Positions 42,900 to 51,204 of a stretch of 64,000 nt of DNA are shown one piece after another (position 1 is the first letter of the stretch; each line of letters opens with the position of its first letter). The position numbers and the translations under genes are program-made. The notes under the pieces were generated by a model. The model did not search any database, had not been told where the DNA came from, and saw nothing but the letters and a program-made list of their open reading frames with translations. The DNA is taken from NCBI RefSeq assembly GCF_018613235.1, contig NZ_JAGGQP010000008.1:1-64000 (forward strand), written 5' to 3'. This stretch comes from Bacillus sp. ISL-41. GTDB lineage: Bacteria; Bacillota; Bacilli; Bacillales; Cytobacillaceae.

Positions 42900-43056
42900 A
42901 TGTCCAATAGAAAAGATGGCAAAAACCGAAATGAGATCAAACCCGGCATGAAAGTTAATATTGTCCTAAAGGCTGACCAGAAAACCGGTAAGCTAACTCC
43001 TGGAATCGTGAAAGATCTCCTCACCAAATCCAGCACACATCCCCATGGCATTAATA
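42900..43056 (+). pseudogene. ywbE: 5' part of ywbE interrupted by the element
   Basis: This gives the first 51 codons of a YwbE-family (DUF2196) protein, from MSNRKDGKNRNEIKPGMKVN to STHPHGI. After that the frame enters the element (NNVYQSVHK, stop at 43080-43082). The missing part KVRLEDGQVGRVKEILE is found at 51151-51204. A good GGAGGG site and upstream A/T-rich region remain, so this fragment is still probably transcribed until the terminator at 43103. The original gene would have been about 68 codons. Confidence 0.9.
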
Positions 43057-43091
43057 ATGTATACCAATCTGTACATAAATAAAAATGTACA
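43057..43091. repeat. Left-end TGTAC repeat cluster
   Basis: ATGTATAC (43057-43064), TGTACAT (43070-43076) and ATGTACA (43085-43091) are present; the last two form an inverted pair with an 8-nt spacer. A further ATGTACA is at 43151-43157, just upstream of the first recombinase gene. These are likely recombinase-binding sites. Confidence 0.7.
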
Positions 43092-43102
43092 TTAATATTG
43101 GC

Positions 43103-43132
43103 AAAACCCTTTTGAATAAAAGGGTTTTTTTA
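43103..43132 (+). terminator. Terminator just inside the element's left end
   Basis: An 11-bp perfect stem (AAAACCCTTTT / AAAAGGGTTTT, loop GAAT) is followed by T residues. It should stop transcription from the broken ywbE promoter before the recombinase genes. Confidence 0.85.
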
Positions 43133-43187
43133 TTTCATGTCGAATTACCTATGTACAAAAATAATTTAAGTTATCAGGGGAAAATGT

Positions 43188-44384
43188 ATGAATAATTTAC
43201 TACACTTTAATAAGAGTAAGAACAATATAAGATTTGTCGTGAGGACAGCAACAATAGAATTGTATCGAGACCGTAAAACAGGACCTGTAATGAAAAAACA
43301 TGCCGTTATAATGCTTAAAAATGTAAATAACGGAAAGGAGATTATACACCCTTTAAATCAATTTATTGTGGATTATTACCGTAATAAATCGTATAACTCC
43401 ATGTCTGTAGCATCGTTCGGGATTACTTCTTTTTTAAATTGGTTATTCTTTGACAGGGAACATCCACTTAAAGATTTAGAAGAGTTGACTATTAGCTGTG
43501 CTACGGAGTTCTTATTTTCACAAACCAAGAAGGGAAACGTAAAGTCAACTGTTAAGAGTTATGAAAACATTATCTATCAATTCTATGTATATCTATCAGA
43601 AAATAGCATTTTAAAAAACATACAACATAGTGACATATTAAATCTCAAAGATAAACATTTTAAAAAGTTAATATATAACCAGAACCCTGTTGGGGAAAGA
43701 ATTCATGATTTTAAAACTGAATTAATAATTCCTTTTATAGAAACTGCATATAACGAAACAAATCCAATTGCATTAGGTGTGTATTATCAGTTTTTTGGAG
43801 GAATAAGAATGGGTGAAATAGTTAATATCACAAAGTCAAATATTAGAAATATCGGTTCTTTTGGAGAGTTTGGACAAATTGTTAAGATTACCGATACAAA
43901 TTTAAGAACGGACTTAACAACGACTTCTGGAACAGGTGAAGTTAAAAAAAATAGAAGTCAACCAATTTTTCCATACAGGAGTTTATTGAAAAAACTTTAT
44001 AATAACCATTTAAAAATGTATAGAAATACCGATACAGATGCTCTATTCCTTAATAGAGATGGTAATCCAATGTCAGGAGAAAGTTATAGAAAAGCATTTA
44101 AAAATTTACAGATACTATTTGTAGAAAATTTAAAGAAATCGAATGACATTAGGATTTCAACATACGGTCATTACTTAGACAGTATGAAATGGTCAACACA
44201 TATTGGGAGAGGTGTATTTTCTAATTTATTAGCGGAGTATACTGACAATGTGTTAGAGGTTGCAGTTTCTCGTGGAGATAGTAATTTAAATTCTTCACTA
44301 ACTTATATAGCAGATACAAAAAGGATAATGAACAAACTGCAAAAAGAATTAGAGTTACTTTATAATGGCGATTTTTTAGACTGA
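43188..44384 (+). CDS. Tyrosine recombinase 1 of the element (TnpA-like)
   Basis: This 398-aa protein has an N-terminal SAM-like core-binding region (about 60-170) and a C-terminal catalytic domain. Catalytic residues are readable: Arg about 207 (GGIRMGEI), HxxR at about 338-341 (HIGRG) and Tyr about 373 (SSLTYIAD). It is the most complete recombinase of the three and is probably the main strand-cleaving enzyme. The box after the second Arg (SRGDSNLN) is divergent from the usual LGH. An AGGGGAAA site precedes the ATG. It is 16 bp upstream of the next gene and co-transcribed with it. It is similar in role to Tn554 TnpA, with low sequence resemblance expected. Confidence 0.85.
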   Translation: MNNLLHFNKSKNNIRFVVRTATIELYRDRKTGPVMKKHAVIMLKNVNNGKEIIHPLNQFIVDYYRNKSYNSMSVASFGITSFLNWLFFDREHPLKDLEELTISCATEFLFSQTKKGNVKSTVKSYENIIYQFYVYLSENSILKNIQHSDILNLKDKHFKKLIYNQNPVGERIHDFKTELIIPFIETAYNETNPIALGVYYQFFGGIRMGEIVNITKSNIRNIGSFGEFGQIVKITDTNLRTDLTTTSGTGEVKKNRSQPIFPYRSLLKKLYNNHLKMYRNTDTDALFLNRDGNPMSGESYRKAFKNLQILFVENLKKSNDIRISTYGHYLDSMKWSTHIGRGVFSNLLAEYTDNVLEVAVSRGDSNLNSSLTYIADTKRIMNKLQKELELLYNGDFLD

Positions 44385-44400
44385 TTTTTAGGAGATAAAT

Positions 44401-46914
44401 ATGAAATATCTAACAACAAAAGAAGCATCCGATATATTAGGAATTACAATTAATAAAGTAAGATATTTACTTCAACGAAATACATTCACTGATGTTATTA
44501 GGGGTACTGGAAGAACACTTATTTCTGAAAATGACATAGAGGAATACAAAAAGCACCTTGAGCTGTTGGATACACTGTTTACAATTCCTGAAGCAAGTTC
44601 CCTGCTTGGTTTTAGTGAAAACAATTTATATAAACATTATGTAAAAAAGAATTTTTTCACTACGGTTCAGATGATTAATAATCATTACTACGTAAGCAAA
44701 GCGGAAATACACAAATTAATAGAGGAAAATAAATCATACTATGAGATGACAGATTTTAAAACTACCGAGGAAACAGCTAAACATTTAAATTTACATGTGG
44801 AGACAGTTCTTAGACATATTACAAAAGGTTCCTTCCCTAACGCTATAAAATCAACGTTTTACAGTTCCAGTTGGAAGATACCTAATAGGGATATAATCTC
44901 ATTTAAAGCCCGTATAAGAGCTTTAAATGAGGACTTGAAGGAGAAACGTAGAATAACAAGAGAAGAACGTTTAACAGCCGAAAAAGAACGCTTAAGTACC
45001 AAAGTAGTACATGAAGCCCAAGAAGAACCCAAAAAAAGAAAAAGAATATTATCCACTATTGAGTTGGAACTGTCTATTAACTATTATACTGTGGGACAAA
45101 TTGCACAATATTTTGGAGTCAATTCTTCCACCATTTATGCAAGGATTGAAGATGGCTTATTCAAAGACATACATACTACTGAAACTAATAATAAACGGAA
45201 AAAATATTTTATAAGTAAAACAGAAGTTCATTCTATTCCATTTGAATTGATAAAGACCGAGAAGTTAACTTTAAATACATCTTTTGAAGATAGAGTTTCT
45301 TATTATTTAAAAAGGGTCAAAAACGAAGCAAAAATTGAGGCCACAATCGAAATATTTAAAGACTATGTAACACACTTGTATTCTAATACAAGAATGAGGC
45401 AAAAACACGCATTGATAAATGTAAATGGTCGGATGTTTGTTGATTTATCTACTTTACTTACTAAGGAGCTTCATAATCATACAGATGCTGAAATAATGAA
45501 TTTAATAGCATCTTCAACCAAGCATAAAAAACAATTAATAGGCTTTTTAAATTTTATACTGGCAGTTAAATCGGATGAATGTAAATTTAGAAATAAGTAT
45601 AACTATACTTCAAAAATCCATACCCAAATGGATAAAGAAATCTATTCCAGAAGTGAATTTAAACAATACTATGATTACGTTAAAAACATTAGCATACATA
45701 AAGAAAAATCTTTATTACAACCTGAATATGCTGAAACTTGGTTCTACATTTTTATGCACATGACTAATGCCTGGAGACGTTCGGATATACTTAACTTCCC
45801 TTTGATAAATTTTTCGGAGATACCAAATGACTATATTGAGCGTGTTTTAAATGATGGAATTCCAGTTTCTGATGCCCAATCTATTATTAACATTGTTTCA
45901 GAGCAATGGGAAAGATTTGTCATTAGTAAGACGAAGGTCTTAAACAAATTTTTAGTGAATATGGATATGCTTGAAACAGCATCCACTATATTACTAACGA
46001 TTGAATTACATAGAAGAAAAGAAAATTACAATAATGAATATCTACTCCCTTTAATGCAAAAGAGAAGTTCATTTTCTCCTTTAATCAATTCGTTTTTTCA
46101 CGCTCACCCTACTTTAAAGTCATTTTCCAGTAGGATAGCAAACAGGAGTTTAATGACTTACTTCTTTCACAGTGTTTCTAAAGGCTCAAAAAATGGTGAT
46201 GTGGCACATCTCCTCGCACAAAGACTAAGAAGACATATGGACCAAGATACGGTTAGTCAGTACGTTATGAATACCAACGAAGACGAATTCCTCGATGATA
46301 CTTCTTATAATCTGTTTAAAAGGGGGCATTTTGGTTGGCTATATAATTCTTTAGTAGACATAGCAATAAATAAAAAAGAATTGAAACTATCGCTGGAGGA
46401 AAAAACAAGAATAATAGAATTGTATCAACAACAGTATTCCCCTTCTGAAATAGAAGAAATATCGTCTTATTTTTTAGAGCAACAAAATAAACAAAAATCA
46501 ATCGCACTTGAAATTGCTCTTTTACCAAACGATGAAATTGAAAAACGGTTGTACAGTATATATGTGGGAGCAATGCCCTCAAAGGAAGAATACTCACAAT
46601 GTTTTTATAGTGAAAACTGCAAAAATCCGACAGGAAACTGTAAAACATGCCCTTATATTATTCCAAGAACCCATCTATTAACTTCACTGAAAAATGACTT
46701 GGTACATATTATAAGTGATATTAGGAATTTGGATGAACATGATGTTTATGAACGAATCAGAAAAACACATATACTGTATAAATTGCTTGGTTTAGTAAGC
46801 CAATCAATAAAGTCCTTTGATAAAGAATACGTTAATAGCTTTATAGCGTTAAAACCATTGGAAACGAGCTTAGAAGCTATAAATGATAAAATCTATTTAC
46901 CTGAAAGGAATTAA
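44401..46914 (+). CDS. Large recombinase-like protein 2 with four N-terminal HTH units and a Cys cluster
   Basis: This 837-aa protein has an N-terminal quarter with four excisionase/MerR-like helix-turn-helix units at about residues 2-26, 59-83, 117-143 and 228-252. Each has the pattern T-x-x-[EQ]-A/I-A-x-x-L/F-G-[IVF] and then a recognition helix. A charged linker (about 170-225) separates the last two. The rest matches a diverged tyrosine recombinase: ANAWRRSDILNF carries the first Arg (about 459-460) and NRSLMTYFFHS ... HLLAQRLRRHMDQDTVSQYV the second box. A C-terminal Cys set (CFYSENCKNPTGNCKTC, about 734) probably binds zinc. The active site may be partly degenerate. The ribosome site is AGGAG. 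Confidence 0.75.
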   Translation: MKYLTTKEASDILGITINKVRYLLQRNTFTDVIRGTGRTLISENDIEEYKKHLELLDTLFTIPEASSLLGFSENNLYKHYVKKNFFTTVQMINNHYYVSKAEIHKLIEENKSYYEMTDFKTTEETAKHLNLHVETVLRHITKGSFPNAIKSTFYSSSWKIPNRDIISFKARIRALNEDLKEKRRITREERLTAEKERLSTKVVHEAQEEPKKRKRILSTIELELSINYYTVGQIAQYFGVNSSTIYARIEDGLFKDIHTTETNNKRKKYFISKTEVHSIPFELIKTEKLTLNTSFEDRVSYYLKRVKNEAKIEATIEIFKDYVTHLYSNTRMRQKHALINVNGRMFVDLSTLLTKELHNHTDAEIMNLIASSTKHKKQLIGFLNFILAVKSDECKFRNKYNYTSKIHTQMDKEIYSRSEFKQYYDYVKNISIHKEKSLLQPEYAETWFYIFMHMTNAWRRSDILNFPLINFSEIPNDYIERVLNDGIPVSDAQSIINIVSEQWERFVISKTKVLNKFLVNMDMLETASTILLTIELHRRKENYNNEYLLPLMQKRSSFSPLINSFFHAHPTLKSFSSRIANRSLMTYFFHSVSKGSKNGDVAHLLAQRLRRHMDQDTVSQYVMNTNEDEFLDDTSYNLFKRGHFGWLYNSLVDIAINKKELKLSLEEKTRIIELYQQQYSPSEIEEISSYFLEQQNKQKSIALEIALLPNDEIEKRLYSIYVGAMPSKEEYSQCFYSENCKNPTGNCKTCPYIIPRTHLLTSLKNDLVHIISDIRNLDEHDVYERIRKTHILYKLLGLVSQSIKSFDKEYVNSFIALKPLETSLEAINDKIYLPERN

Positions 46915-48541
46915 GGACTTGAACATATTAGTTAAGCTACATACATTACAGGAAACTCCCAATGAGAAAATATCATTTAAAAACAGCGAGTACGGTTTTA
47001 AATCTGAAGATGTCGAAACTTATTTGAAAATATATGAGGGATTAAAGAATGAAGGTGTAATAAAATCGGGTGAGTTTTCAGAATCTATTTGGCTCTTGAA
47101 AAACGTTAAGAAAAAGTCTACCGTTACTTTCACATTTGATTTGGAACTGCATAAGGAATTTAATTTAGCCTTAAAATGCTTTATTGTTAATTTGATTAAT
47201 ACCGATTACACTCTTGACCATTTGAAGTCTATGTTAACAAATATACGACAAGCCTTTATAGAAAGCAGACAGTTTGAACCAGCATTTCTGAGACAATATG
47301 AAGATATTTTAATGGCAACAACCGATAGAAAGAAAGAACAATTAATTCAAAGCAATCTGAAGTTTGCGGAATTTTACACAAACCACTGGAATAGTGAATA
47401 TGAAAAGTTGTTTAAATCCATTTCCCTTCCAAAGAGAAAAATCAGAACGTTGCCACATTATGAAAGTATAATTCAATTCGATGATATATTACTTGATTTT
47501 ATGAAAAAATGTACCACTGACCAAAGGAAAAAATATTTGCCTATTCTCTTATGGTGGAGAATAACAAAAATCATCCCTCTACGCCCCAGTGATTTTTTAG
47601 ACCTTAAAGCCGACTGTCTCTCTTCGGGAAATAATACATTTAGTATTACTGTTCCAAGAAATAAGCAAAAAGGAAATGGTCAAATTGAAATTACTAACAC
47701 TTTGAAAATTACCAAGGAGATATATGACCTTATCTCTGAATACTTATCTCTTCAAAGTCAAACGGAAAAAAGCGAGTATCTTTTTGCTTATATGCCTTAC
47801 AATTCCTTTATAAAGGAACGGTCAAGACATAATGCTAAAAGTAGAAGAAATCGAACCGACAAGATGGACAATGCTCAAATGGAAGAGTTGTTAGATGACT
47901 TCTATGTGGATGTAATAGGTGAACAGTATGGTTATCCAGATTTGGAGCGAGTGAAGTTAGGTGATACTCGACATTTTGCATTTTGTAATATGATGTTACA
48001 GGGCTTTAATGAGTTGACGATTGCCAGAATCGGTGGACATTTAAATTTAAAATCCCAAATTACTTATTCAAGCCATCTTGATTATTTTGCGGAAGCACGA
48101 GTAAGAATATTGTCTGAGACAATAAAAAGAAATAGAGAACAAGATTTAGGAGATGCGTTCCTATCTGATTCAAATGCCCTAATCGTTAGAAGTAAGCTAA
48201 CAAAGGGAGAAACAACGGATATAAGAATACAAGGAGGATTTTGTAGAGATAGTAGCTTCCCAAACAATTGTATAGATAATTGTATATTTTGTTCTCATTT
48301 TCAACTTGATTTAATAAACAATCCCGAAATGGTCAACTCATTAAAATTACAATCAAATAAATATTCTCAGAATATAAAAGACCAAATTGAAACAATGCAA
48401 CGTTTCTCAAAAGATATGCTTTATGATAAAAGCACATTGAAATATTCTCATGAAGACCAAGAACAGCTATCTATTCTTGCAAGAAAACTAACGGAATTAT
48501 TCAATAAAAAAGCCCTTATTGATTCTTATATTCCTAAGTAA
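46883..48541 (+). CDS. Tyrosine recombinase 3 of the element (TnpB-like) with C-terminal zinc cluster
   Basis: In this 552-aa protein the catalytic residues are Arg about 234 (IPLRPSDFLDL), Arg-His about 363-364 (GDTRHFAF), His about 386 (IGGH) and Tyr about 395 (QITYSSH). The His of the HxxR box appears replaced by Gly. The C-terminal region has a Cys-rich motif (GFCRDSSFPNNCIDNCIFC) as in Tn554 TnpB-type proteins. It overlaps the preceding gene by 32 bp from ATG 46883. A TTG at 46919 has a better ribosome site (GAAAGGA, 8 nt) and may be the true start. It is part of the same operon. Confidence 0.82.
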   Translation: MIKSIYLKGIKDLNILVKLHTLQETPNEKISFKNSEYGFKSEDVETYLKIYEGLKNEGVIKSGEFSESIWLLKNVKKKSTVTFTFDLELHKEFNLALKCFIVNLINTDYTLDHLKSMLTNIRQAFIESRQFEPAFLRQYEDILMATTDRKKEQLIQSNLKFAEFYTNHWNSEYEKLFKSISLPKRKIRTLPHYESIIQFDDILLDFMKKCTTDQRKKYLPILLWWRITKIIPLRPSDFLDLKADCLSSGNNTFSITVPRNKQKGNGQIEITNTLKITKEIYDLISEYLSLQSQTEKSEYLFAYMPYNSFIKERSRHNAKSRRNRTDKMDNAQMEELLDDFYVDVIGEQYGYPDLERVKLGDTRHFAFCNMMLQGFNELTIARIGGHLNLKSQITYSSHLDYFAEARVRILSETIKRNREQDLGDAFLSDSNALIVRSKLTKGETTDIRIQGGFCRDSSFPNNCIDNCIFCSHFQLDLINNPEMVNSLKLQSNKYSQNIKDQIETMQRFSKDMLYDKSTLKYSHEDQEQLSILARKLTELFNKKALIDSYIPK

Positions 48542-48566
48542 TGTTAAATGAAAGCGAGATAAAGTT

Positions 48567-49145
48567 ATGATTAATAAAAAAGGTAGACCTCAACGTTACA
48601 GCAAGGAAGAACTATTAGAAATACTAACAAATTATGCGTTAAACAACATAGGGAAAATAACTTTTCTTAACTTAGAAAAAGAAACAGGAATACATCGTCA
48701 TATATGGTCTCGTAGAATGAGTGAACAAATTAATGAGTTAAACCAATCATATAGTTCTCTTGATGCTGAAAGTTTTGAGGCAATTCCTTTACCTAATATT
48801 ATAGATACTGTAAATAAGTATTGGGAAAATAAGAAAGCGATGATTAACGCTCTTAATGAATACAATACCTATATACAAGCTCTTTGGGAAAAAGCTGTGG
48901 CATTTGAAAAAGCAAGTCAAAAAGAAAGAGAACTTTTACAATTACTTGAAGAAAAGGACAAGGAAATTAGGTTTCTCAAAGACAATAGAGATTTTTATAA
49001 AAATGAATATCAAAAAATTTCCATAGAAAGTACGTATGACCATAAACAAAAGGAAAACAATATTGAGAATGTTATAAATATAAACGATAAAAAGAAGATG
49101 ACAACCTCTAATTGGAAAGATAATTTCCCTGGTTTATTTGAATAG
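48567..49145 (+). CDS. Small helical protein, TnpC/DUF6262-like
   Basis: In this 192-aa protein, the N-terminus (KGRPQRYSKEELLEILTNYA) is a basic helix-turn-helix type start. The middle (about 95-150) is a long, Glu/Lys-rich coiled coil (KEKDKEIRFLKDNRDFYKNE). The position and size match the third, small accessory protein of Tn554-like recombinase modules, which helps orient the reaction. The family assignment is tentative. The ribosome site is weak. It lies 25 bp after recombinase 3. Confidence 0.6.
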   Translation: MINKKGRPQRYSKEELLEILTNYALNNIGKITFLNLEKETGIHRHIWSRRMSEQINELNQSYSSLDAESFEAIPLPNIIDTVNKYWENKKAMINALNEYNTYIQALWEKAVAFEKASQKERELLQLLEEKDKEIRFLKDNRDFYKNEYQKISIESTYDHKQKENNIENVININDKKKMTTSNWKDNFPGLFE

Positions 49146-49185
49146 AATAATTATGAAGCACACAGTTAGATAAAGAGGTGAAAGA

Positions 49186-50649
49186 ATGTTTGATATTGGA
49201 GAATATGAATTTTTGATGTATGGATTTACTGAATATGCGACAGAACATGTAAAACTTAAACCAAGTACATTTTCAAGATACAAGGTTATTCTTGATGATT
49301 ATTTTGAAAAATATATAATTGATAAAATTGCCAAAGGAGATTATGCAGAAATTTTTAACATTGATAGGCTTTCTTTAATTAAGAGAAAATCTAATAATGT
49401 TAGACCAAGTTTATTGCAGTTCTTGGAGTTTTTACGTTATGAAAGTTTTATTGAACAGAATGTATACTATCAATTTAACAATGATATTAAATCCATCTTT
49501 TTTGCGGAAGAGCAAGTTGAAAATAATGAAGATGAAATAGACTTTTTGACGCCAAATGATATTAGAACTTTATTCAGTGGTCGTTTAGTTTTCAAGTATG
49601 ATTACGAAGAGGCACTAATTCCGTTGGTTTGTTCGCTTACCTTCTTTAATATGTTTAAACAGGAAGATGTGGTAAAACTTTTATTATCAGATATTGACTT
49701 TGAGAAAAAACGTATAAGAAATGTAAGACGTTTGGAAGCAAATTCTGACTTAGTAGAATGGTTATCTTTAAATGATATAACTTTTGAATACTTAACGGAC
49801 TATCTAAAGTATCGAAATAAGCAAGGTTATTCTGGTGACATTCTTTTAATTATGGAAAACAGCACTTTAGATAATGGAAAAATCAATAGGCTCTTCAGTT
49901 GTTTTGATAGAGTCGCTAATAAGGGATTATTTAGGGGGAAAAAGATTTATCAAGAACTTTTGAGAAGAAGTATGATGTTCCATATACTTCATTCTACCGA
50001 TGGAAGAGGTATTTACAAAATATTATTAGAACAAGATATAACTAAACCATTTGAATATGCCTTTAATGAATATATATCTATCATGAGGGCTGAAAATAAA
50101 AGTATTGTGAGTGCAAACTATAACATTGAAGATATTTTACCGAATAAAAAACCAGATACTCTCTTAAGAAACCAATATTCGGAAAGGAATGACGTTAATG
50201 AACAAGATATTCATGATTTCGATATGAATAATGAAAGAAATCTCGAACAAAATAAAGTTTCTATACAAAGAATGGTAAGGGATAGTAAAATAGCCAGACA
50301 ACTAAAGATTTCCTATAACAACGAATGTCAGCTTTGTGGTTATAAATTGAGAAAATCTAACGGTGAGTTCACCTCTGAAGCACACCATCTTCAACCATAT
50401 AATAAATTACATAGAGGTGATGATATTAGTCATAACATAATTGTATTATGTCCCAACTGTCACACCCAATTTGATGATTTGTACTTTGCAATTAATCCCG
50501 AAACTGAGGAAGTACACTGCATTTTTGAAGCCGAAGATGAATATCATTTGTCCAAACTCAAGATGAATGAAGGTCATATTCTCGGAAAGAAATACTTACA
50601 GTATACTTGGAACTTATTTGAAAGAAATAAGGAAATAAACTTTATTTAA
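49186..50649 (+). CDS. Degenerate tyrosine-recombinase-like protein fused to an HNH nuclease
   Basis: This 487-aa protein has an N-terminal part (about 1-110) resembling a SAM-like core-binding domain. The middle (about 140-310) follows the recombinase fold: LTFFNMFKQEDVVKLLLSDID sits where the first catalytic Arg should be, but Lys is present, and RRSMMFHILHSTDGRGIYK lies near the second box. The C-terminal domain (about 380-450) is an HNH nuclease with two CxxC knuckles (CQLC, CPNC), AHH and a following N and H (CPNCHTQFDD). The zinc and catalytic residues look complete. An AGAGGTGA site is present. This is the fifth gene of the operon. Its role in transposition or in target cleavage is unknown. 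Confidence 0.72.
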   Translation: MFDIGEYEFLMYGFTEYATEHVKLKPSTFSRYKVILDDYFEKYIIDKIAKGDYAEIFNIDRLSLIKRKSNNVRPSLLQFLEFLRYESFIEQNVYYQFNNDIKSIFFAEEQVENNEDEIDFLTPNDIRTLFSGRLVFKYDYEEALIPLVCSLTFFNMFKQEDVVKLLLSDIDFEKKRIRNVRRLEANSDLVEWLSLNDITFEYLTDYLKYRNKQGYSGDILLIMENSTLDNGKINRLFSCFDRVANKGLFRGKKIYQELLRRSMMFHILHSTDGRGIYKILLEQDITKPFEYAFNEYISIMRAENKSIVSANYNIEDILPNKKPDTLLRNQYSERNDVNEQDIHDFDMNNERNLEQNKVSIQRMVRDSKIARQLKISYNNECQLCGYKLRKSNGEFTSEAHHLQPYNKLHRGDDISHNIIVLCPNCHTQFDDLYFAINPETEEVHCIFEAEDEYHLSKLKMNEGHILGKKYLQYTWNLFERNKEINFI

Positions 50650-50771
50650 AAATGCTTTATGTACACATTTCTTTTTAGTGTTAAAGAAATTTCAAGAGTT
50701 TCTCGCTTTTGTATATAAAGATAGGCATACGTTTCACAAATTTAAGTACAGAAAAAGGAGAATTATTCTAT

Positions 50772-50984
50772 ATGACAGGGAAATACAGAAATGAACTAAT
50801 TTCTGGCTTAACAGTAGATGTTGTATTAAAGAAGAACCAAAGAACGGGAATCTTAACTCGTGGGAAAATTGAAAAATTACTAACAAACAGTTCCTATCAT
50901 CCATACGGAATTAAAGTGAAATTACAGGATGGACAAGTTGGAAGAGTTCAAGCGATTATTATGGATAGCTCAGATAAGCAGTAA
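50772..50984 (+). CDS. ywbE: Complete divergent ywbE-like gene carried by the element
   Basis: This is a 70-aa DUF2196 protein: MTGKYRNELISGLTVDVVLK at the start and HPYGIKVKLQDGQVGRVQ near the end. By eye about 34 of 59 aligned residues match the interrupted host copy reconstructed from its two halves, so it is a separate homologue rather than a repeat of the host gene. The ATG at 50772 follows AAAAAGGAG by 11 nt. It lies between the HNH fusion gene and the element's right end, with an ATGTACAC repeat upstream (50659-50666). The DUF2196 function is unknown. It probably restores the lost function. Confidence 0.85.
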   Translation: MTGKYRNELISGLTVDVVLKKNQRTGILTRGKIEKLLTNSSYHPYGIKVKLQDGQVGRVQAIIMDSSDKQ

Positions 50985-51048
50985 TCAATTCAATTCTATC
51001 TAATATTTAAAAACACCTTTAACCGACTTTTCTTCAGGAAATTAGTTA

Positions 51049-51144
51049 TTAATGTACATGATTTTTATTGTACATTAATAAAAAGGAAGAAAACTCACTA
51101 TTTTCAACGTCTCACCAATTATGTACACAATTTAAAGTGTACAT
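51049..51144. repeat. Right-end TGTAC palindrome cluster
   Basis: Two palindromes are present. TTAATGTACA (51049-51058) pairs with TGTACATTAA (51069-51078). ATGTACAC (51121-51128) pairs with GTGTACAT (51137-51144). The outer one, inverted, matches the left end, giving imperfect terminal inverted repeats. They are likely recombinase-binding sites. Confidence 0.7.
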
Positions 51145-51150
51145 ATCGTG

Positions 51151-51204
51151 AAGGTCAGGCTGGAGGACGGACAGGTAGGCCGCGTAAAGGAAATACTGGA
51201 GTAA
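51151..51204 (+). pseudogene. ywbE: 3' part of ywbE left of the stop codon
   Basis: In frame, 51151-51204 reads KVRLEDGQVGRVKEILE then TAA. It is the missing end of the host ywbE whose start is at 42900. Joining codon 51 (Ile) to this Lys restores a normal DUF2196 protein of about 68 residues. Confidence 0.88.

Follow-up and report, generated by a model that had tools for sequence, protein, structure and literature searches.

The stretch of DNA analysed here (the window) comprises 64,000 nucleotides of Bacillus sp. ISL-41 (assembly GCF_018613235.1, contig NZ_JAGGQP010000008.1, positions 1 to 64,000). Within it, an A/T-rich insertion of 8,098 bp cleanly interrupts the host ywbE gene after codon 51 and carries six co-directional genes. 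These encode three consecutive proteins of tyrosine-recombinase type, R1 (398 aa), R2 (837 aa) and R3 (552 aa), a small protein, C4 (192 aa), an HNH-nuclease protein (487 aa) and a second, complete YwbE (Table 1). The original prediction, made from the letters of the window, had placed about 8.1 kb of A/T-rich DNA at codon 51, and both the coordinates and the alignment with same-genus flanks agreed with this. It had taken ywbE to be merely split and had missed that the sixth gene is a complete, diverged ywbE.

Table 1. Features of the interrupted ywbE locus and of the inserted element, by position in the window.
Feature	Position	Strand	Basis or remark
Host ywbE 5' half, codons 1-51 (...HPHGI)	42900..43052	+	PF09962, E = 1e-21; syntenic with same-genus genomes
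Left 7-bp core GCATTAA (host sequence at insertion point)	43048..43054	+	Length (6-7 bp) inferred from Tn552-II and strand-biased circularizing integrative elements (SEs)
Net inserted DNA, 8,098 bp	43053..51150	+	Flank alignment to L047 and L058; 2-bp AA ambiguity
TGTACA pair, 16 bp apart, left end (43070, 43086)	43070..43091	+	Candidate recombinase sites
Intrinsic-terminator-like hairpin just inside left end	43103..43128	+	Sequence scan
R1, tyrosine recombinase, 398 aa	43188..44384	+	R207, K253, H338, R341, Y373 conserved
R2, 837 aa, HTH_17/MerR repeats, recombinase-like part, four conserved cysteines	44401..46914	+	R459, K510, H612, Y621
R3, tyrosine recombinase, 552 aa	46883..48541	+	Conserved C-terminal cysteines
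C4, 192 aa, small fourth module protein	48567..49145	+	Position of TnpC/GinD/Srap; 25 aligned members
Cargo HNH-nuclease protein, 487 aa	49186..50649	+	HNH_2, E = 7e-8
Complete element-borne ywbE, 70 aa	50772..50984	+	PF09962 2-61/61, E = 1.5e-25; AGGAG upstream of ATG
TGTACA pair, 16 bp apart, sub-terminal right (51053, 51069)	51053..51074	+	Motif count
TGTACA pair, 16 bp apart, right end (51122, 51138)	51122..51143	+	Motif count
Right 7-bp core TCGTGAA, footprint not fitting ywbE codons	51146..51152	+	Inferred
Host ywbE 3' half, codon 52 to stop (KVRLEDGQVGRVKEILE, stop)	51151..51204	+	Sequence; PF09962 genome search

In two uninterrupted same-genus loci, L047 and L058, the left flank stops where the right flank starts, with an overlap of only the 2-bp AA, indicating that nothing was lost or duplicated beyond the AA that fits either side. 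The displaced 3' half starts with KVRLEDG. A PF09962 search returned three matches in this genome, the 5' half, the 3' half and the complete gene, which is its only intact ywbE; each of 20 other same-genus genomes searched had a single ywbE match. The G+C content of 1-kb segments was 27-33% wholly inside the element as compared with 37-43% outside it.

R3 and R1 both matched PF00589, with E-values of 2e-7 and 6e-6, respectively, the latter at 26.5 bits for a cut-off of 27.1. R2 gave no PF00589 match in the Pfam scan and only HTH_17/MerR repeats by Pfam and NCBIfam; its recombinase-type assignment comes from conserved residues. In an alignment of 40 R2 sequences, R459 was present in 40/40, K510, R610, H612 and Y621 in 39/40, and R582 in 31/40. 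Conserved positions were R207, K253, H338, R341 and Y373 among 45 R1 sequences, and R234, K261, R363, H364, H386 and Y395 among 42 R3 sequences (duplicate loci L102, L156 and L104 were excluded from the module alignments). C4, aligned over 25 sequences, had no significant Pfam or NCBIfam family. Scans of the element proteins with the same two databases detected no DDE-transposase, phage-structural or conjugation family. The predicted run of three recombinase-type genes among six, without transposase, phage or conjugation functions, was thereby confirmed, as was the broader claim of a compact tyrosine-recombinase element at a defined codon.

Short repeats cluster at the ends of the element. TGTACA occurred 16 times in the window as compared with 10.1 expected (sd 2.75), a count reached in 3/100 shuffles. 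Seven copies lay within ~105 bp of the element ends, six of them forming three pairs with 16-bp spacing. When TGTACA, TGTGCA and TGCACA were counted together, there were three in the first and four in the last 200 bp, as compared with four in the other 7.7 kb of the element; related elements at L103, L160, L162, L164 and L108 had two to four such sites per terminal 200 bp. We infer that the recombinases bind these repeats. Five terminator-like sites were found in the region as compared with 3.0 expected, and hairpins like that at the left end were read by eye at the left ends of several other elements.

The element-borne ywbE appears foreign and conserved. Its G+C content was 0.35, as compared with 0.46 for the host halves; its identity to the host 5' half was 53%, and the closest of 32 chromosomal ywbE genes (those of the fetched loci, mostly top-scoring) reached no more than 62%. 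It retained 28 of the 35 residues invariant across these 32 genes, and its differences from the ywbE of L069 fell at 27 first, 11 second and 40 third codon positions. This pattern fits purifying selection on a foreign copy, within the limits of so short a gene. We know of no function for YwbE.

A classical integrase element that restores its target through a replacement end would be one explanation for a complete ywbE beside a severed 3' half. An element of genome G291 (L212 2558-5565) appears to treat ywbE in this way: a complete ywbE and a displaced 3' fragment lie on either side of a 2.7-kb stretch with one integrase-like open reading frame (ORF), read by eye, and the fragment begins at the Gly-Ile-Lys codons where the window ywbE is cut. 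In the window, however, neither junction restores a gene. The left frame stops nine codons after codon 51, and the intact ywbE, which has a start codon of its own, is set 166 bp in from the right end, so that such an element was excluded here on the sequence of the junctions as extremely improbable. The two insertions thus share a gene and a set of codons, but the G291 element apparently restores the host 3' half and brings no whole gene. In genome G029 a 3' fragment of ywbE occurs alone and starts close to these codons. These fragments suggest that the Gly-Ile-Lys region of ywbE has probably been struck by elements of two or more kinds that deal differently with the resulting break. No second element of the window type was found at ywbE in the family and order genomes searched.

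Two further loci with additional ywbE sequences were noted. In genome G003 an intact ywbE is accompanied by a second, frameshifted one (L098, G003:C84 6956-7139). On a single contig, L213 (G224:C12 35500-55400) carries two complete ywbE genes separated by ~17 kb that include sugar-transport-like genes; a neighbouring gene is repeated as well, and the arrangement looks like a segmental duplication.

The window element belongs to a family defined by homologues of R1, R2 and R3 in that order (45, 40 and 42 aligned members, respectively). R3 relatives were present in 27/193 genomes of the taxonomic family and R1 relatives in 31/397 genomes sampled from the order, this genome included in each, and a related-locus search gave 10 named loci. 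With the module so widespread in Bacillales, the proposal of a stand-alone new type was not supported. Trees of R1 and R3 resolved two deep clades, A and B, with the window element as a long branch in clade A; profile comparison of the two clades gave a probability of 100 for each of R1, R2 and R3. The genes split across the lineages include those for a Y-family polymerase, topB, radA, DNA ligase, thermonuclease, radC, DUF72 and flotillin. Insertion of relatives at unrelated sites had been named beforehand as a refutation; unrelated genes are indeed hit, yet the choice of gene largely tracks the recombinase lineage.

We then surveyed 46 loci, the window included, by matching the ORFs to the left of R1 against those to the right of the module; missing halves were sought with complete homologues or Pfam families. 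The set excludes L102, L034 and L104, along with loci lacking R1 (L043 and L124, for example). Target names came from Pfam for ywbE, radC, Toprim, IMS and Band_7, from the annotation of the plasmid in the case of L122 (polymerase IV and yolD), and from the protein sequence for radA, bcp, DNA ligase, thermonuclease, DUF72, topB and flotillin as such, ABC ATPase and YhaM. Both halves of a split gene lay on one contig at 22/46 loci, some of them close relatives, so that the 22 do not count as independent events; the remaining 24 were unbounded (draft assemblies, locus length). L161 (topB) and L040 (bcp) fell outside the 22 with one side at a contig edge, and L041 with the whole gene and the other half on another contig. 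The unbounded L040 had the left half of bcp and, at the contig end after C4, a complete bcp.

Eleven of the 22 bounded elements contained a complete internal copy of the gene that they split: ywbE in the window, a Y-family polymerase gene in L122, L036 and L035 (accompanied by a yolD-like gene in the first two), an ATP-dependent DNA ligase gene in L103, topB in L116, L119 and L170, radA in L158, and a thermonuclease gene in L162 and L164. For L035 and L170, sequences of both the internal copy and the far half were retrieved for alignment. By clade, copies numbered 8/11 in A and 3/11 in B. What first looked like a DUF72 copy in L171 proved to be the host's second half and was discarded, and a seeming YhaM copy in L167 (25% identity, opposite strand) was left out of the count.

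The complete ywbE could instead be chance cargo, or have been captured by imprecise excision beside the ywbE of an earlier host, with no part in tolerance of the insertion. Its place near the right end would suit this, since a neighbour could be picked up there by imprecise excision; so would the half of the bounded elements that lack a copy and the L162 copy, only ~28% identical to the gene that it would replace. A control on 11 elements argues otherwise: an internal homologue was found for 9/11 split genes as compared with 2/129 flanking ORFs of at least 100 aa, the two positives being one in L119 (a 62-residue match) and one in L160. The copies, from several gene families, also occupy two positions, soon after the module (L040, L119, L158, L162 and L164) or near the right end (the window, L035, L036, L103, L116, L122 and L170), and the element-borne ywbE is conserved. 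We consider chance capture unlikely.

Sequence identities indicate that the copies follow the elements rather than the hosts. The topB copies of L116 and L170 were 83% identical to each other, and the topB of L161 75-77% identical to both, while identity to the L116 copy was ~32-35% for the host halves of topB in L116 and L170. The thermonuclease copies of L162 and L164 were 73% identical, and each was ~28% identical to the host fragment of L162; the L164 copy had 64% identity to its own host fragment. At L104/L159, a complete topB with 67-72% identity to the element-borne type lies left of an extra integrase-like ORF and R1, and is perhaps the right end of a neighbouring element.

The split ywbE could also be dispensable debris and the element an immobile relic. 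The R3 match in this genome is single and no ywbE-type relative was found; moreover, the four genomes with radC elements, which have no copy, gave RadC matches only to the two halves, implying that loss of a target can be tolerated. All genes of the window element are nevertheless open, R1 and R3 keep their catalytic residues and terminal repeats are present at both ends, which makes a relic quite improbable.

The reading that we favour, at a probability of roughly three in four, is that the element is a 'break-and-replace' site-specific transposon of the wider Tn554/SE/GInt type, bringing with it a complete foreign ywbE that keeps the function of the gene it breaks. In the proposed mechanism, R1 and R3, probably R2, together with C4, would act on the TGTACA-type repeats at both ends, and a circle would form with a 6-7 bp spacer. 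The circle would insert into the stretch of ywbE encoding His-Gly-Ile-Lys, cutting the gene mid-way, and the complete foreign ywbE, if expressed, would maintain the function. What the sequence itself shows is the clean insertion, the module, the end repeats, the intact and conserved foreign copy, and the recurrence among relatives of a split gene with an internal copy; the recombinase roles, mobility through such a circular intermediate, expression and functional rescue would be consequences of the model.

Several observations weigh against this reading. The other 11 of the 22 bounded elements had no internal copy: a thermonuclease element (L108), a topB element (L160), a flotillin element (L163), four DUF72 elements (L114, L115, L120 and L171) and four radC elements (L117, L165, L166 and L168). 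Copies were accordingly uneven among targets, at 0/4 for radC, 0/4 for DUF72, 0/1 for flotillin, 3/4 for topB and 2/3 for thermonuclease. The L162 copy is distant (28% identity) from the host gene that it would replace. The combination of ywbE halves and a whole ywbE was confined to this genome among 193 genomes of the family and 397 of the order, and a ywbE-specific element family was rejected; the remaining genomes with multiple ywbE matches, G003 and G029 among them, were inspected individually. L122 and L036 had weak end repeats, with one TGTACA-type site per end and several inside, and the ends of L158, L119 and L116 had no TGTACA, TGTGCA or TGCACA. Finally, all 32 chromosomal ywbE genes examined (most from high-scoring loci) encode HPHGIK with a core of the form GNATHAA, and the right footprint TCGTGAA fits 0/32 of them; the right core was therefore probably not brought from a ywbE of that type. 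In favour of the reading, the left and right cores of the polymerase elements (CCAACAG/CCAGTAG in L122, CCAAGAG/CCAATAG in L036) are unlike in sequence and apparently encode the same residues, as read by eye. Such differences are as expected if the right core was brought in as an attachment site (att) from the polymerase gene of another host.

The family works like the Tn554, SE and GInt elements and is filed under none of them: by sequence profile its kinship with Tn554-type elements and GInts appears no more than distant, and its gene order is that reported for SEs, with which it was compared by description. Tn552-II of Staphylococcus aureus has a recombinase module, cargo and a target-gene-like gene, tgl, and inserts mid-gene into a yolD-like target with a 7-bp core, bringing in a different core at its right end; its authors propose that tgl may rescue the disrupted gene (PMC12486829). 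The window element resembles it in its module, cargo and target-like gene, its mid-gene insertion and its unlike 7-bp cores. As is characteristic of Tn554 and Tn552-II, it shows no target duplication and has heterologous 6-7 bp cores (here GCATTAA/TCGTGAA, their length taken by analogy). It does not have the three-gene tnpABC layout: Tn552-II has three tnp genes and no counterpart of R2, which in the window lies between R1 and R3. Similarity of R1 to TnpA and of R3 to TnpB was confined to the profile level, with probabilities against Tn552-II of 91 and 60, respectively, for clade A and 69 and 2 for clade B; C4-TnpC gave a weak 16 and R2 at most 6. Staphylococcal plasmids gave no tblastn match to the window R3 (E up to 1e-5) or R1 (E up to 1).

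SEs, reported from Gammaproteobacteria, have the order IntA, Tfp, IntB, Srap and a 6-bp footprint, and Tfp is said to lack the catalytic motif (PMC10214605). This order corresponds to R1-R2-R3-C4; R2 differs from the SE second protein, as described there, in keeping R, K, H and Y. GInts (ginABCD) have three recombinase-like genes and one for a small protein, cargo, an AT-rich 3' end and imperfect direct repeats, and those described sit at gene ends (PMC5385486). The window element shares the former features, as far as the cited text describes them, but is inserted mid-gene, and the ginABCD order is absent, with the large non-catalytic protein third in the GInt-like module L199 and the large protein second in the window. 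R3-GinB gave a probability of 91 (E = 1e-6), R1-GinA 46 (2e-4) and R2-GinB 80 over 57 columns of the C-terminal part; no profile similarity was found for R2-GinC (0.7) or C4-GinD (1.6), with reversed decoys below 0.5 (hhalign, local mode). The four GInt-like modules used were picked from gammaproteobacterial plasmids by gene order and size, unchecked against published GinABCD, and some are interrupted by insertion sequences. In Vibrio cholerae, the recA mobile element (RME) interrupts recA and has, at one of its ends, a complete but divergent recA, and the same report cites a thymidylate-synthetase case in Clostridium difficile (PMC4405046). From that description, RME is like the window element in its split target and complete divergent copy at one end, and differs in its phage integrase and XerS, its 33 kb and its host.

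Isolated precedents for replacement have been published for tgl of Tn552-II (PMC12486829) and the recA island RME (PMC4405046). What seems new is the involvement of ywbE, together with the recurrence across several target genes within one recombinase family. As the original prediction had held, no paper describing ywbE as an element target was found, nor one describing a family-wide replacement pattern, in a literature search with most subscription papers and bioRxiv preprints outside its coverage. We also lean towards the view that Bacillales harbour a large family of tyrosine-recombinase transposons in which each lineage has evolved to cut a different conserved gene at a set position, and that many of these transposons persist by means of a diverged replacement. 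If so, breakage with replacement would be a general strategy by which host genes are swapped for element-borne ones, and the host may come to depend on the element. The suggestion made for single elements (Tn552-II, RME) would become a testable rule, that an element cutting a useful gene mid-way brings a whole replacement, with the converse that those cutting a gene that can be spared, perhaps radC or DUF72, bring none. Such elements would provide a route for foreign versions to replace topB, radA or DNA polymerase genes, disturbing gene trees, and split genes with an internal homologue would offer a handle in the search for new elements.

The remaining gene of the window element, for the HNH protein, was rejected as part of the module on the basis of two full-length relatives without R1-R3 nearby. 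Full-length relatives at 51% and 47% identity are among loci L094, L095 and L100; that of L095 lies beside a large serine recombinase, next to an apparent split sigK, and that of L094 near tyrosine-integrase-like and resolvase-like ORFs (read by eye). The N-terminal 330 residues of the cargo protein have no confident family. A phage origin of the element was also rejected: among 50,697 phage records none matched R3 at E 1e-5, and one scan of viral contigs gave no relative of R1. A small circular Campylobacter jejuni plasmid record (L201, pFORC_084_2, 5.1 kb) consists almost solely of R1- and R2-type genes; it may be an element of this kind in circular form, or else a contig that was mis-assigned. 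As read from their ORFs, the right parts of L037, L103, L108, L109 and L168 carry DGQHR-type proteins and Xre-type regulators as cargo, and L109 also carries heavy-metal-type genes.

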